Source of the DNA: an uncultured Cryomorphaceae bacterium
GTDB lineage: Bacteria; Bacteroidota; Bacteroidia; Flavobacteriales; Schleiferiaceae
Length of the DNA: 40,534 bases
NCBI GenBank assembly: GCA_905182675.1
Contig: CAJJCK010000085.1
Coordinates: 1 to 40,534, forward strand
Direction: 5' to 3'
In this document: piece by piece, positions 12,726 to 20,639 of the stretch
Position numbering within the stretch: position 1 is the first letter of the stretch
Layout of the letters: every line of letters begins with the position of its first letter
The notes under the pieces: model-generated
Database searches by the model: none
The model's input: only the letters and a program-made list of their open reading frames with translations
What the model was told of the DNA's origin: nothing
Translations under genes and position numbers: made by a program

Positions 12726-13055
12726 ATGATAAAAGTATCTGACAAAGCGAAAGTGAAGCTTGATGCTCTCATGCGAGAAGAAGGCAAGAGCTTGGGCGCC
12801 ACCTACATTAGTGTAGGAGTGGAAAGCGGCGGTTGTTCTGGCCTTTCATATAAAATGGATTTCACAACCGAGCAGCCTGAAATAGGCGAACTCTATGAAG
12901 ACAACGGTGTTAAAGTTGTCGTAGAGAAAAAAAGCCTCCTTTACTTGATTGGGACTACCCTGGAATACAGTGGTGGCCTAAATGGTAGCGGATTCAATTT
13001 TAATAACCCAAACGCGACACGCACCTGCGGGTGTGGTGAAAGTTTCGCAGTATAA
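12726..13055 (+). CDS. sufA: A-type iron-sulfur carrier (IscA/SufA family)
   Basis: 109-residue A-type carrier that accepts Fe-S clusters from the SufBCD scaffold and passes them to client apoproteins. The three conserved cluster-binding cysteines are present: C37 in GGCSGLSYKM, and C101 and C103 in the C-terminal CGCGESF. Length is typical. It is the first gene of the suf operon and follows a perfect -7 box. sufB begins nine bases after its stop. The operon position supports the SufA name, though IscA and ErpA are nearly indistinguishable by sequence. Confidence 0.92.
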   Translation: MIKVSDKAKVKLDALMREEGKSLGATYISVGVESGGCSGLSYKMDFTTEQPEIGELYEDNGVKVVVEKKSLLYLIGTTLEYSGGLNGSGFNFNNPNATRTCGCGESFAV

Positions 13056-13064
13056 TTTAAGTCT

Positions 13065-14501
13065 ATGAGTGATGAGATTCTAGACGAAGTAACAGCTTCA
13101 GAATATAAATACGGTTTTGTAACTGATATCGAAAGTGATACCGTAGCGCCCGGATTGAATGAGGATGTTATTCGTATGATTAGCGCTAAAAAAAACGAAC
13201 CTTCTTGGATGTTGGAATGGCGCTTAGATGCCTTCAAAATCTGGCTGGACATGAAAGAGCCTGAGTGGTCAAATGTCACTTATAAGAAACCAGATTTTCA
13301 GGCAATTTCTTACTATAGCGCTCCTAAGCAAAAGAAAACATTAGATAGTTTAGATGAAGTAGATCCTGAGTTACTCAAGACTTTTGAAAAGTTAGGTATT
13401 AGCCTAAACGAGCAGAAGCGTTTGAGTGGTGTCGCCATGGATATTGTGGTGGATTCTGTTTCTGTAGCAACAACTTTTAAGAAAACACTGGGAGAGAAAG
13501 GAATTATTTTCTGTTCCATGAGTGAGGCTATAGCTGAACACCCGGAATTGGTTAGAAAGCACATCGGTACGGTAGTTCCAAAGAGAGATAACTTTTATGC
13601 TGCCCTGAACAGTGCTGTCTTTACGGACGGATCGTTCTGTTACATTCCAAAAGGCGTAAGATGTCCTATGGAATTAAGTACTTATTTCCGTATTAATGAG
13701 TCTGGTACTGGTCAATTCGAGCGTACTCTGCTTGTAGCGGATGAAGGCTCGTTTGTCAGTTACCTTGAAGGGTGTACAGCACCATCACGCGATGAGAATC
13801 AGTTGCACGCGGCAGTGGTTGAACTGGTTGCTATGGACGGAGCTGAGATTAAGTATAGCACCGTACAGAATTGGTATCCAGGGGATGCTCAAGGCAAAGG
13901 AGGGGTATTCAATTTTGTGACCAAGCGCGGTATTTGTGAACGCAACGCTAAAATTAGCTGGACTCAAGTAGAAACCGGATCAGCAGTAACCTGGAAATAT
14001 CCGTCGTGTATCCTCAAAGGAGACAATAGTATAGGCGAATTCTACAGTGTTGCTGTTACCAATAATTATCAGCAGGCAGATACCGGTACGAAGATGATTC
14101 ACTTGGGGAAAAACACCAAGAGCACCATTATTTCGAAAGGAATCAGCGCAGGACACAGCCACAACAGCTATCGTGGTCTTGTGCGTATAGGTGCCCGTGC
14201 TGAAAACGCTCGAAACTTTAGCCAATGTGATTCTCTGTTAATGGGAGATCAATGTGGCGCACACACCTTCCCTTATATCGAAGCGCAGCATCCTACTGCT
14301 CAAATAGAGCATGAGGCGACTACTTCGAAAATTGGAGAAGACCAACTTTTCTACTGCAACCAGCGTGGAATCCAAACAGAACAGGCCATCGCATTGATCG
14401 TCAACGGATATTGTAAAGATGTACTCAACCAGCTTCCTATGGAATTTGCCGTAGAAGCACAAAAACTATTGGAGATCTCGTTAGAGGGTTCCGTAGGATA
14501 A
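13065..14501 (+). CDS. sufB: Fe-S cluster assembly scaffold SufB
   Basis: 478-residue core subunit of the SufBC2D complex, on which nascent Fe-S clusters are assembled in the cytoplasm. The N-terminal helical part is followed by the long beta-helix domain. Typical SufB segments are the [19 protein letters not shown] stretch, EGCTAP, and the C-terminal [23 protein letters not shown] block. Length agrees with other SufB proteins. It lies second in the operon, with three bases before sufC. Confidence 0.98.
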
Positions 14502-14504
14502 GTC

Positions 14505-15254
14505 ATGATTAAAATCAACAACCTACACGCCAGAGTTGAGGAAAAGGAAATCCTTAAAGGCATAAATTTAGAGATCAAACCAGGTGAAGTTCACGCTATC
14601 ATGGGACCTAACGGATCTGGGAAATCAACATTGAGTAATGTCATTGCTGGTCGAGAAGACTATGAAGTAACTGGCGGCACTATCGATTTTGAAGACGAAG
14701 ATCTGTTAGATCTAGATCCTGAAGAACGTGCGCACAAAGGTATTTTCCTGAGTTTCCAATACCCTATTGAAATTCCCGGAGTGACGGTGAGCAATTTCAT
14801 AAAGACAGCCATCAATGAAACTCGCAAGGGACGTGGTGAAGAACCTATGGATGCTAGAGAAATGTTGTCTAAAATGCGAGAGAAATCAGCGCTTTTAGAG
14901 ATGGATAAGAGTTATCTCAGTAGAAGTCTGAACGAAGGGTTCTCTGGAGGTGAAAAAAAGCGGAATGAGATTTTTCAAATGGCCATGTTAGAGCCAAAAC
15001 TAGCCATCCTAGATGAGACTGATTCTGGTTTAGATATTGACGCACTTCGTATTGTTGCAAACGGTGTAAACAAGCTCAGAAGCGCTGATAACGCTGTACT
15101 TGTCATCACTCACTACCAGAGATTACTGGACTACATTGAGCCTGACTTCGTACATGTGCTGTATAATGGTAAAATCGTGAAGAGCGGTGACAAAAACCTA
15201 GCGATAGAGCTCGAAGCTAAAGGATACGACTGGATCAAGGAGGAAAACGCATGA
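14505..15254 (+). CDS. sufC: Fe-S cluster assembly ATPase SufC
   Basis: 249-residue soluble ABC-type ATPase of the SufBC2D complex; ATP hydrolysis drives rearrangement of the scaffold. Walker A is GPNGSGKST (34-42), the ABC signature is FSGGEKKR (146-153), and Walker B is LAILDETDSGLD (166-177), with the H-motif in VLVITHYQRLL. There are no membrane segments. Its stop overlaps the sufD start by four bases (ATGA), so translation is coupled. Confidence 0.98.
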   Translation: MIKINNLHARVEEKEILKGINLEIKPGEVHAIMGPNGSGKSTLSNVIAGREDYEVTGGTIDFEDEDLLDLDPEERAHKGIFLSFQYPIEIPGVTVSNFIKTAINETRKGRGEEPMDAREMLSKMREKSALLEMDKSYLSRSLNEGFSGGEKKRNEIFQMAMLEPKLAILDETDSGLDIDALRIVANGVNKLRSADNAVLVITHYQRLLDYIEPDFVHVLYNGKIVKSGDKNLAIELEAKGYDWIKEENA

Positions 15255-16570
15255 CAAATTTAGCACAAGACTTACTCTCTTCTTTTGTTGTAGTAGAACC
15301 TCAACTAAACGGTGGTCGAAACCTTCATGTGGCCGGCATGCGAAAAGAGGCGTTAGACCGCTTTGAGCTCACAGGGTTTCCAAGTACAAAAGATGAAGAG
15401 TGGAAGTACACGAATTTAAAGCCGGTACTAAAGCACGACTACAAAATATTATTGAAAAGCGAGGATGCCGTTGCGTTTTCAGACATCAAGCAGTTTCTTC
15501 TCAGTGATCTGGATACTTATAAACTAGTATTCATCAACGGGAAATACAGCTCTTGGCTCAGTGAAACAACGCATAGTGAATTTGACATTTGCACCTTCGC
15601 TTCAGCGTTGAATAAGTATCCTGATACGATCGCTGAATATCTGGGTAAAGCTGCTCCAAAGGGAGAGACTTTTGTTGATCTCAATACTGCATTCGCGGAT
15701 GATGGGGCGTTTATTAGAGTGAAAAATAATCAAACTGTTGACAAGCCTATTGAAGTTCTCTATTTGACCACAGAGGAAAATGGACCTTCTTTTTCTCAAG
15801 TACGTAACTTGATTATAGTGGAGCAGAATGCGGAAGTACAAATTGTCGAGCGCCATCAAAATTTAGGTAGCACTGTTAATTTTACCAATTTTGTAAGCGA
15901 AGTATTTGCTGCACAAGACTCAAGAGTGAGCTATTATAAGGTTCAAAATGACGTCACCCACGCTTCCTTAGTAGACAATACACATGTGATGCAAGAGCGT
16001 CAAAGTAATGTGCACGTGGGTACGTATAGCTTCGGAGGTAAATTGATTAGAAATAACCTGCATTTCTACTCGGCAGGTGAGCATTGCGAAAGTCACATGG
16101 ATGGCGTTACCATCATTGGAGATGGCCAGACAGTCGATCACCACACTTTGGTTGACCATCAAGAACCACATTGTTACAGTCGAGAGCTGTACAAGGGGAT
16201 TTACCTCGGTAAGAGTCACGGGATTTTCAACGGTAAAGTTATTGTACGTCAAAAAGCACAAAAGACAAATGCTTTCCAGCAAAATGATAACATTCTTTTG
16301 AGCGACAAAGCGTATATTGATGCAAAACCCCAGCTAGAAATTTTTGCAGACGATGTTCGTTGTTCTCATGGATGTACGATAGGTCAGTTAGATAAGAACG
16401 CACTATTCTATCTCCGTTCCAGAGGTATTCCGAAAAGCGAAGCACAAGGCCTAATGACCTATGCATTTGCTTCCGATGCCCTTGAATATGTCAAGATCCC
16501 ACAATTAGCAACACGCTTAAACCGTGTTATTGCTGAAAAACTCGGTATTAATCTAGAATTCGCACTCTAA
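15251..16570 (+). CDS. sufD: Fe-S cluster assembly protein SufD
   Basis: 439-residue paralogue of SufB that completes the SufBC2D scaffold and is involved in iron acquisition. The N-terminal DEEWKYTNL motif (about residues 43-51) and the C-terminal beta-helix block (DDVRCSHGCTIGQLD...YLRSRGIP) are characteristic. Its cysteine and histidine near DVRCSHG match the proposed SufB-SufD interface site. It starts inside the last codons of sufC and ends one base before sufS. Confidence 0.97.
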   Translation: MTNLAQDLLSSFVVVEPQLNGGRNLHVAGMRKEALDRFELTGFPSTKDEEWKYTNLKPVLKHDYKILLKSEDAVAFSDIKQFLLSDLDTYKLVFINGKYSSWLSETTHSEFDICTFASALNKYPDTIAEYLGKAAPKGETFVDLNTAFADDGAFIRVKNNQTVDKPIEVLYLTTEENGPSFSQVRNLIIVEQNAEVQIVERHQNLGSTVNFTNFVSEVFAAQDSRVSYYKVQNDVTHASLVDNTHVMQERQSNVHVGTYSFGGKLIRNNLHFYSAGEHCESHMDGVTIIGDGQTVDHHTLVDHQEPHCYSRELYKGIYLGKSHGIFNGKVIVRQKAQKTNAFQQNDNILLSDKAYIDAKPQLEIFADDVRCSHGCTIGQLDKNALFYLRSRGIPKSEAQGLMTYAFASDALEYVKIPQLATRLNRVIAEKLGINLEFAL

Positions 16571-16571
16571 T

Positions 16572-17789
16572 ATGGCCTATAACGTCCACGACATAAGAGC
16601 ACAGTTCCCCATTCTGAATCAAACGATTCACGGGCATCCTCTAGTTTACCTGGACAATGCTGCCACATCACAGAAGCCTCTTGCAGTAATCAATGCGATA
16701 TCTGATTACTACCTGAACTACAATGCCAACGTTCATCGCGGAGTGCACACATTGAGCCAACGCGCAACGGATGGAATGGAGTCTGTTAGAGAGCAAGTGC
16801 GAGCACACATTAATGCAAAGGAAGCTGCAGAAATTATATTTACCCGAGGGATTACGGACAGCATCAATACCATAGCGTTTGGTCTATCAAGTATCGTTAA
16901 GAAGGGGCAGAATGTAGTTATTACGGAAATGGAGCACCATAGCAATATCGTTCCTTGGCAAATGCTTTGTGAACGTACCGGCGCTGAATTGCGATACTTT
17001 CCTGTAAACGCTCAAGGCGAACTTGTCATTAATGATGTAGATACTATTATTGATGAGGATACCGCCGTGGTCTCCTTTAATCATATTTCAAACGCGTTAG
17101 GTACCATTAACCCGGTCCAACTGCTGCTCAAAAAAGCGCAATCTGTTGGGGCGTGGACACTCGTAGATGGTGCACAAAGTGGACCACATGCCATGGTGGA
17201 TGTTCAGGATTGGGGCGTAGATTTTTTCACCCTTTCTTCACATAAAATGTATGGACCTACGGGTCTAGGTATTCTCTACGGCAAACGAGAACGGTTAGAA
17301 GCTTTACCGCCCTATCAAGGTGGAGGTGAAATGATCGAGACGGTAACCATGGAAAAAAGTTCATACGCCGGTATTCCTCATAAGTTTGAAGCAGGTACGC
17401 CTCATATTGAGGGAATCATTGGTTTCGGAGCAGCATTAACTTTTGTTAATGAACTTGGCATTGAAAACATTGCGGCGCATGAGGCTGAACTACTCGCGTA
17501 TGCTGTAGAACAATGCAGCCCTATTGAAGGGTTTAGAATCATAGGGGACTCAATGCATAAAGCGAGTGTCTTGAGTTTTGTTGTGGATGGCACACACCCA
17601 TATGATTTGGGGGTGTTGTTAGATCAGCAAGGCGTGGCAATCCGCACTGGACAGCACTGCACTCAACCCATTATGGATGCCTTTTGCGTAACTGGTACTG
17701 CACGTGCAAGTTTCGCACTGTACAATACGAAAGAAGAGGTAGACCTATTTAAAGCGGCTCTTGAAAAAGCGGTTAACATGTTGAAATAA
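16572..17789 (+). CDS. sufS: Cysteine desulfurase SufS
   Basis: 405-residue PLP-dependent group II cysteine desulfurase that releases sulfur from L-cysteine as an enzyme persulfide for Fe-S assembly. The Schiff-base lysine is K225 in SSHKMYGPTG, and the catalytic cysteine is C363 in RTGQHCTQP. Both stand at positions equivalent to E. coli SufS K226 and C364. Length is normal. It is followed after three bases by sufE, its sulfur acceptor. Confidence 0.97.
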   Translation: MAYNVHDIRAQFPILNQTIHGHPLVYLDNAATSQKPLAVINAISDYYLNYNANVHRGVHTLSQRATDGMESVREQVRAHINAKEAAEIIFTRGITDSINTIAFGLSSIVKKGQNVVITEMEHHSNIVPWQMLCERTGAELRYFPVNAQGELVINDVDTIIDEDTAVVSFNHISNALGTINPVQLLLKKAQSVGAWTLVDGAQSGPHAMVDVQDWGVDFFTLSSHKMYGPTGLGILYGKRERLEALPPYQGGGEMIETVTMEKSSYAGIPHKFEAGTPHIEGIIGFGAALTFVNELGIENIAAHEAELLAYAVEQCSPIEGFRIIGDSMHKASVLSFVVDGTHPYDLGVLLDQQGVAIRTGQHCTQPIMDAFCVTGTARASFALYNTKEEVDLFKAALEKAVNMLK

Positions 17790-17792
17790 GCC

Positions 17793-18209
17793 ATGAGTAG
17801 TATCCAAGAAAAGCAGCAAGTTCTGATCGATGATTTCGACTTCATAGAGGAGTGGATGGATAAGTACAACCACATTATTGAGATGGGGAAATCTATGACG
17901 ACGCTTTCCGAAGAAGAAAAAGAAGAGGATTTACTGGTTAAGGGATGTCAAAGCAAGGTCTGGCTAAAAGCTGAAAAGAAAGGTGACAATGTTGTCTTTA
18001 AAGCGGACGCAGATGCGATCATTGCCAAAGGTATCGTAGCCATGTTGATCGATGTATTTAGCGACCAGCCAGCAAAAGAAGTCGCTCATGCAGACCTGAG
18101 TTTTTTAGAGAAAATGGGATTAAAGGACCATTTAAGTCCGACCAGAGCAAACGGACTAATGAGTATGATTACTCAAATGAAATATTACGCACTGGTATTT
18201 GCCGGTTAA
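17793..18209 (+). CDS. sufE: Sulfur acceptor protein SufE
   Basis: 138-residue protein that takes the persulfide sulfur from SufS and hands it to SufB, stimulating desulfurase activity. The acceptor cysteine is C52 in VKGCQSKVW, the family's signature loop. Length and fold pattern match SufE. It lies between sufS and a DUF59 gene in one operon. Confidence 0.96.
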   Translation: MSSIQEKQQVLIDDFDFIEEWMDKYNHIIEMGKSMTTLSEEEKEEDLLVKGCQSKVWLKAEKKGDNVVFKADADAIIAKGIVAMLIDVFSDQPAKEVAHADLSFLEKMGLKDHLSPTRANGLMSMITQMKYYALVFAG

Positions 18210-18220
18210 CAGAAAACGAG

Positions 18221-18553
18221 ATGAGCGAGGAACTTACACATAGTGAAATGCAGAAAATTGGAGAAGAAGTGGTCGCTGTATTGTGTACTATTTTTGATCC
18301 CGAAATTCCTGTGGATATCTATCAACTAGGTTTGATTTATGATGTCAAAGTGAGCACAGAGAGAGATGTCCATATTCTGATGACCTTGACTTCACCCAAC
18401 TGCCCTGTTGCAGAGAGTATGCCGCAGGAAGTCAAAGAAAAGGCTAGGGCCATAGACAGCGTACGTGATGCTGAGGTTGAGATTACATTTGAACCAACTT
18501 GGGACAAGAGTATGATGAGCGAAGAAGCCATGCTTGAGCTTGGAATGCTGTAA
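18221..18553 (+). CDS. DUF59/MIP18-family Fe-S assembly protein (SufT-like)
   Basis: 110-residue single-domain DUF59 (MIP18/PaaD-like) protein. The family motif DPEIPVDIYQLGLIYDV is at about 27-43, and LTSPNCPVAESMP carries the conserved cysteine. Homologues at the end of suf operons are called SufT or 'SUF system Fe-S cluster assembly protein' and assist Fe-S maturation, while the PaaD branch acts in phenylacetate oxidation. The suf context supports the former. It is the last gene of the operon, 11 bases after sufE. Confidence 0.92.
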   Translation: MSEELTHSEMQKIGEEVVAVLCTIFDPEIPVDIYQLGLIYDVKVSTERDVHILMTLTSPNCPVAESMPQEVKEKARAIDSVRDAEVEITFEPTWDKSMMSEEAMLELGML

Positions 18554-18695: not shown

Positions 18696-20134
18696 ATGAA
18701 AATCGGTATAGATGCTCTTTCCTATTACGTTCCTCACCATTATTTGCCTATTGAAACCCTGGCTAACGCTAGAAAAATAGAATATGCCAAGTTGAATAAA
18801 GGCCTAGGCTTGACCTCTATGTCTTTTCCTGATATAGATGAAGATGCTGCCTCTATGGGAGCCAATGCATGTCTTGAGTTGTTCACGAACGAAAAATTAG
18901 ACCCTTCAAAAGTGGGAAGGTTATATCTAGGAACAGAAAGTGCACTTGACAGTGCGAAGCCCACAGCTACCTATATTCTAGATCTTTTGGAGCATACTTT
19001 AGAAGAGCAGCACGGACCAAGATCATTGCGAAACACTGATGTTGTTGACATGACCTTTGCTTGTATAGGTGCTATAGATGCATTAGAGAATGCCTGTCTT
19101 TACGTAAAACAACATCCGGAAATGAAGGCCATTGTAGTGGCATCGGATTTAGCGAAATATGAACTGAATTCTTCCGGTGAATACACCCAAGGAGCGGGGG
19201 CTGTAGCTCTGCTTGTTTGTGCTGACCCGGAGATCATAAGTCTCAGCGAAGAGATCGGTGTCGCTACGAAGGCGAACGTGATTTCTTTAAACCAAGAAGA
19301 ACCCACACAAAGGCAGCTGTTTTAGTAGAGGCCGCACAGTTATTGGGGTTGTCGTTGTCCACAGAGGACGCAGAAGAACGCTTATCCAAGGCGAATGGTT
19401 TCTGGGGTGGCAACACAATGCTTAGGACCTATCATGAAGAACCTGTTTTCGATGGTCAATACAGTAACAGCGCCTACGTAGGGCGTGTTAAAGAAGCTCT
19501 AGCGCACTTTGGCACGAAAATCAATGTGAACCCTGCTCTAGAGTGGGATCGCGTCGTCATGCACCTTCCCTACGCTTTTCACGGTAGACGAATGCTGGTC
19601 AATTTCTACCTAGATTGGATGAAAGAGAACGGAAGATGGGCGGAGATAGTTGCTGCTATGGATGGCGAAAAGCCGGAAGATAAAGAAGAAGCGAAGACAT
19701 GGGTAAGGGCCTTTAGCAAGAGTTCGTACTACAAAAATTATGTATCGAAGGCACTAGAGCCTGCAGAACGAGCGTCAAGCTTGATTGGGAATATGTATAC
19801 CGCATCCATTTTCATGGGTTTAATTAGTACGCTATGCGATGCCGCCCAGCGTAAGGAATCCTTGACAGGGAAAGTCATAGGTTTCATGGGATATGGATCA
19901 GGTAGCAAGGCAAAGGTATTCCAAGGCACTGTGCAATCCGGTTGGAATAAAGTTGCTAAGCTTAGGTTATTTGAACGTCTTGAAGATCGCGTAGCCGTAG
20001 ATTTCACGACCTATGAAAATTGGCACAACGAAAAACTTCAGACACCAATAGTTCCAAATAAATCAGCATTTATCTTTGAAGGGCTTAGAACACAAGAGAA
20101 TCAAGAGTACTTTAGAGATTACACTAGACAATAG
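18696..20134 (+). pseudogene. mvaS: Hydroxymethylglutaryl-CoA synthase, interrupted by a -1 frameshift
   Basis: HMG-CoA synthase condenses acetyl-CoA with acetoacetyl-CoA in the mevalonate pathway. The N-terminal part (18696-19325, 209 residues) carries the catalytic glutamate E81 (GTESALD) and nucleophile C123 (FACIGA). It then leaves the correct frame and stops. The remainder is open one base back, from about 19280 to 20134, beginning DFFKPRRT and including MHLPYAFHG with the catalytic histidine region. Joined, the parts give a full-length enzyme of about 479 residues. The shift needs one missing base near 19278-19283, or -1 slippage at T TTA AAC (19286-19292). Both parts look well conserved with no other lesion, so the break is recent, artefactual or recoded. 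Confidence 0.88.
19286..19292 (+). other. mvaS: Slippery heptamer TTTAAAC at the mvaS frameshift
   Basis: The heptamer reads T TTA AAC in the frame of the N-terminal mvaS segment, the exact X XXY YYZ phase for -1 ribosomal slippage. A slip here would give ...VISLN-PRRT..., the same length as the expected ...VDFFK-PRRT.... However, TTT AAA C also simply encodes the conserved F-K-P in the other frame, so the match may be inherited rather than functional. Only a weak six-base stem (19315-19320 with 19336-19341, one GU pair) lies downstream. Confidence 0.35.
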
Positions 20135-20138
20135 AACC

Positions 20139-20639
20139 ATGGCCGAAGGAGAGATTTTAAATAAAGTAGCTAATAGCCCCCTCATCACATTTAATCTAGA
20201 GGATTTTATGCCCGCTGGAGTCTGTGATTTGGACATCTCTCAGTTTCTTGAAGGTGGCTATGTGTTGCGAGAAAAAAACTTTCGTGACACTCTTAAAATC
20301 TTTGACTACAGCCCTTTTCAAGGAAAATTTGTTCGCGTTTTCTGTAGTACAGACGCTATCCTACCCGCTTGGGCAGCACTATTAGTTGCCTCAAAACTTT
20401 GTGATCACCAAGCGCGGAGCTACTGGGCGAGTAGTGAAGAATCCTTTTATAGTCAATATTATAGAGAGCATTTGTCTCAATTAAATTGGGATGATTTCAC
20501 AGGTAAGCCAGTGATCATAAAAGGATGTGGCGATCCTAGAGTTCCTCAAGACGCCTACGTGTTTGCAACCAGTAAAATGAAGCAGGTCGCTAAAAAAATC
20601 AGTTATGGTGAAGCATGTTCAGCGGTCCCTCTGAAATAA
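20139..20639 (+). CDS. DUF2480 family protein
   Basis: 166 residues from the ATG at 20139, four bases after the mvaS stop. An in-frame upstream ATG (20076) lies within mvaS and is not used in homologues. The protein matches the DUF2480 family, found mainly in Bacteroidota, with no signal peptide or membrane segment, so it is probably cytoplasmic. Function is unknown. From memory, DUF2480 genes in flavobacteria often sit just downstream of the suf genes; here mvaS lies between. It ends two bases before a convergent minus-strand gene. Confidence 0.88.
   Translation: MAEGEILNKVANSPLITFNLEDFMPAGVCDLDISQFLEGGYVLREKNFRDTLKIFDYSPFQGKFVRVFCSTDAILPAWAALLVASKLCDHQARSYWASSEESFYSQYYREHLSQLNWDDFTGKPVIIKGCGDPRVPQDAYVFATSKMKQVAKKISYGEACSAVPLK

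Follow-up and report, generated by a model that had tools for sequence, protein, structure and literature searches.

Results

In the window, the whole stretch of 40,534 nucleotides analyzed here, the HMG-CoA synthase gene mvaS is broken by one missing base, and this break is probably a single-base sequencing or assembly error, or a minor variant that was assembled, in a gene that is intact in nature.

Layout of the mvaS locus

The ORF list and the sequence of the window placed mvaS in two frames, -1 apart. The N-terminal frame runs from the ATG at 18696 to a stop at 19323-19325 (209 aa) and matched the Pfam domain HMG_CoA_synt_N with an E value of 8.8e-21. The C-terminal part lies in the -1 frame, which is open from 19226 to a stop at 20132-20134, and matched HMG_CoA_synt_C with an E value of 2.5e-17. 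Both domains scored above the cut-off, and E81, C123 and the His region MHLPYAFH, which mark membership in the MvaS family, were present across the two frames. A previous inspection of the same DNA, referred to here as the sequence-only reading, had described mvaS as split by a -1 shift, with E81 and C123 in the first half and the catalytic His region in the second, and each of these elements was found. The nearest relative was genome G011, with 88% DNA identity; compared with it, the N-terminal part was 94% identical at the amino acid level (residues 1-193) and the C-terminal part 89%. Directly 5' of mvaS lies a complete-looking suf iron-sulphur cluster operon (12726-18553) with SufB/SufD family members, a SufS-like aminotransferase, SufE and an FeS assembly protein, and a DUF2480 gene (20076-20639) overlaps the end of mvaS.

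Table 1. Features of the mvaS region, with positions counted from the first nucleotide of the window
Feature	Position	Strand	Evidence
mvaS (HMG-CoA synthase), N-terminal part, out of frame past 19268	18696..19325	+	ORF list; Pfam; E81, C123; identity to G011
mvaS, C-terminal part, -1 frame	19268..20134	+	Pfam; identity to G011; shares the frame of the N-terminal part in all relatives
Site of the missing base, AA versus AAA (Lys codon) in same-genus relatives	19269..19270	+	DNA alignment A1; codon table of the relatives
TTTAAAC, codons TTT AAA C of the family F-K-P motif and no dedicated slip signal	19286..19292	+	Codons of the relatives; folding

Site of the missing base

In the DNA alignment the window had AA at 19269-19270, in place of the AAA seen in every same-genus relative that covers the site. 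This AAA is the Lys codon of the sequence VATKGE(R/H)DFFKPRRT, and the missing base sits 16 nt upstream of the TTTAAAC heptamer. G011, with AAA and an open frame, reads ACG AAA GGC GAG CGC GAT TTT TTC AAA CCA AGA AGA, and the window reads ACG AA GGC GAA CGT GAT TTC TTT AAA CCA AGA AGA. All 86 distinct relatives that contain the site lacked a stop across the junction, and mvaS was read through in every relative recovered. The interval 19278-19292, previously given for the frame change, was therefore slightly off, as the alignment puts the lost base in the A run at 19269-19270. The alternative considered at the time, one lost base with the other frame reading DFFKP, was borne out, and DFFKP was kept in 83 of the 86 relatives. 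As a separate observation, the same-genus bin G002 carried two mvaS loci that differ from each other and lie on separate contigs, C58 and C72 (L123, L011, L135), perhaps because two strains were binned together or through duplication.

Selection on the gene and the isoprenoid route

The dN/dS values against G011 were 0.062 for the N-terminal part and 0.075 for the C-terminal part of mvaS, and 0.010-0.057 for the neighbouring suf genes. These ratios indicate strong purifying selection on both halves of mvaS. Polarised amino acid changes were not in excess on the branch of the window (2 vs 4 in the N-terminal part and 2 vs 3 in the C-terminal part), and one of the two changes of the window in the C-terminal part was the broken Lys codon itself. 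Neither relaxed selection nor further lesions of the kind expected in a pseudogene were seen, mvaS containing no additional stops or shifts. Gene decay was ruled out by the dN/dS values and the polarised changes, but a very recent null would be compatible with the same data.

A search for a second mvaS and for MEP pathway genes, as proposed in the sequence-only reading, gave no second mvaS in the draft genome, which is 88% complete, and neither IspG (GcpE) nor IspH (LytB) was found in the bin. GcpE/IspG was present in 0 of the 25 genus genomes searched. HMG-CoA reductase was intact in the genome, and GHMP kinases were retained. The mevalonate route appears to be the sole isoprenoid route in this genome, judged from the gene content of an 88% complete bin, and mvaS is probably essential. 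The MEP pathway was rejected as a backup because both GcpE and LytB were absent from the bin. With no MEP ispG/ispH and no second mvaS, a fixed loss of mvaS function should be lethal or cause auxotrophy.

Frameshift background in the assemblies

The assembly is a draft metagenome bin of 248 contigs and 1.64 Mb, and the frameshift rate was derived from a comparison of about 377 kb of it with about 1.5 Mb of G011. Across about 78,000 aligned residues of this genome, no convincing frameshift other than that of mvaS was seen, and G011 had one in about 75,000. The latter was a lone 1-nt shift at about 1724-1729 of L251, near an ATATAT run, in a small gene unrelated to mvaS, the counterpart of which was intact in the genome of the window (L258 ORF, 147 aa). 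Three other frameshift candidates were rejected, as they were placed in non-coding extensions upstream of gene starts, and the low count likewise led to rejection of a generally error-ridden assembly. With one convincing shift in each genome, both assemblies have a low background of isolated one-base breaks, and the lone missing base of mvaS falls within that of its assembly. A search of the literature on indel errors in metagenome-assembled genomes returned nothing directly on point.

The TTTAAAC heptamer

T TTA AAC at 19286-19292 was the sole in-phase X XXY YYZ heptamer in the overlap of the two frames (19226-19325). Its presence in phase had been claimed in the sequence-only reading and was confirmed; it has the zero-frame phase of a slippery heptamer for programmed -1 ribosomal frameshifting and lies inside the 100-nt overlap. 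In a control in which single bases were deleted along 33 intact window genes, some in-phase slippery heptamer was left in the overlap in 7.2% of cases, and TTTAAAC itself in 0.2%. The nucleotide comparison with relatives, also proposed earlier for the missing base and the heptamer, showed the missing base to be shared by none and the heptamer by some: 34 of the 86 distinct intact relatives had TTTAAAC in the normal frame, but only 2 of the 23 distinct same-genus sequences did, the other 21 lacking it. G011 had TTTTTCAAAC at this position, and its gene was intact.

Where TTT AAA C stands in an intact frame, the loss of one base upstream automatically yields an in-phase T TTA AAC, and the coincidence of heptamer and break is only modest because the FKP motif is conserved. 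Judged from the codons of the relatives, TTTAAAC is how mvaS spells Phe-Lys-Pro and thus a by-product of the FKP codons. The conservation expected of programmed -1 frameshifting was not seen, as no relative was disrupted and the slip site was not kept across the same genus. A conserved recoding signal was rejected, since the heptamer is ordinary FKP coding sequence in undisrupted relatives. Simple folding against shuffles, which leaves out pseudoknots and upstream anti-SD elements, detected no stimulatory downstream RNA structure (z = -0.22, 0.57 and -0.44). A slip at the heptamer would give ATK-ANVISLN-PRRT instead of ATK-GERDFFK-PRRT; the product would have the right length, as had been expected, but the conserved DFFK would be lost.

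Discussion

The best explanation is that the consensus lacks one A of the AAA Lys codon at 19269-19270 in an otherwise ordinary mvaS. In a fragmented metagenome bin this would reflect a sequencing or assembly error, or a minor variant kept by the assembler, and in the living population mvaS would be intact and translated conventionally. We infer that the base loss is not in the cells. The lost base itself is shown by the alignment, and the intact relatives, the purifying selection and the failure to find MEP ispG/ispH in the bin argue for an error; the low genome-wide rate argues against it, the assembly not being broadly indel-ridden. A 3-base homopolymer is also an atypical error hotspot for short reads, which counts in the same direction. 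The sequence-only reading had put sequencing or assembly error first, and the single missing A, the intact relatives, the purifying selection and the lack of an alternative isoprenoid route support this choice. Its order of recoding second and pseudogene third was reversed, a genuine recent null or strain variant being placed above recoding.

It is unlikely that mvaS was truly inactivated by a very recent one-base deletion, whether in the sampled strain or in part of the population. A carrier of this deletion would live on scavenged mevalonate or isoprenoids, or be on its way out. Loss of one base from a short homonucleotide run is a common kind of mutation (PMC3812077), which favors such an event, and the low dN/dS would be compatible with it if it was recent. 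However, ispG, ispH and a second mvaS were all unfound in the bin, so that a fixed null should not be viable without a supply of isoprenoids; HMG-CoA reductase and the GHMP kinases have been kept, and there is no other mark of decay.

It is considerably less probable that a real deletion is bypassed, with a -1 ribosomal slip at T TTA AAC or transcriptional slippage giving enough full-length enzyme. The heptamer has the right phase and is alone in the 100-nt overlap, and a slip there restores the original length. There are also precedents: a laboratory drift experiment measured bypass of frameshifting indels at 3-8 base repeats (PMC3812077), and endosymbionts are known to show corrective slippage (PMC5009743). 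Against this, the heptamer is FKP coding sequence that stands in the normal frame of many intact relatives, G011 has an intact gene with a different sequence at this position, and the downstream structure is unremarkable (z from -0.4 to 0.6). The slip product would lose DFFK, which belongs to a motif that nearly all relatives retain. Moreover, the natural slip site of E. coli dnaX is A AAA AAG, whereas U UUA AAC is highly shifty on mammalian ribosomes (PMC5009743, a review). For transcriptional slippage the remaining A run of two bases would be a poor substrate. The specific case of a fixed one-base deletion in the sole gene for an essential isoprenoid step, survived by ribosomal slippage on a TTTAAAC that arose by chance from FKP codons, is more doubtful still. 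The recoding suggested in the title of the sequence-only reading is thus not upheld: the heptamer is an FKP by-product, the signal is not conserved, a stimulator was not detected and the slip loses DFFK.

A split HMG-CoA synthase made from two separately translated halves is extremely improbable; each half is open and conserved, but no relative is split, and the first start that the ORF list gives for the second half, TTG at 19343, lies within the conserved region, past DFFKP.

The case shows that ordinary codons can produce a slippery-looking heptamer beside a frameshift, and scans for recoding should check for the TTT AAA C phase effect before recoding is proposed. Should the cells really carry the deletion and bypass it, an essential gene would be rescued in a way that is unusual outside endosymbionts and mitochondria, and trans-frame peptides would span ATKANVISLNPRRT.

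Like bacterial -1 programmed frameshifting of the dnaX type, the mvaS locus has two open frames whose overlap contains an X XXY YYZ heptamer in phase. In contrast to dnaX, its heptamer is not conserved as a signal, is not A AAA AAG and has no stimulator that was found, and on its own the N-terminal product would be half an enzyme without activity. The rescue of an important gene with an indel would be shared with corrective slippage in reduced endosymbiont genomes, but that acts at long poly(A) runs (PMC5009743), whereas mvaS has a run of AA and lies in a 1.6 Mb bin with few other frameshifts. The third comparison is with isolated frameshift or indel artefacts in metagenome-assembled genomes, from which mvaS differs in that its artefact status is deduced here from the consensus sequence. 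It resembles them in that a strongly conserved single-copy gene has a lone deletion of 1 nt, in a short A run, and the related bin G011 has a comparable lone 1-nt shift in L251.
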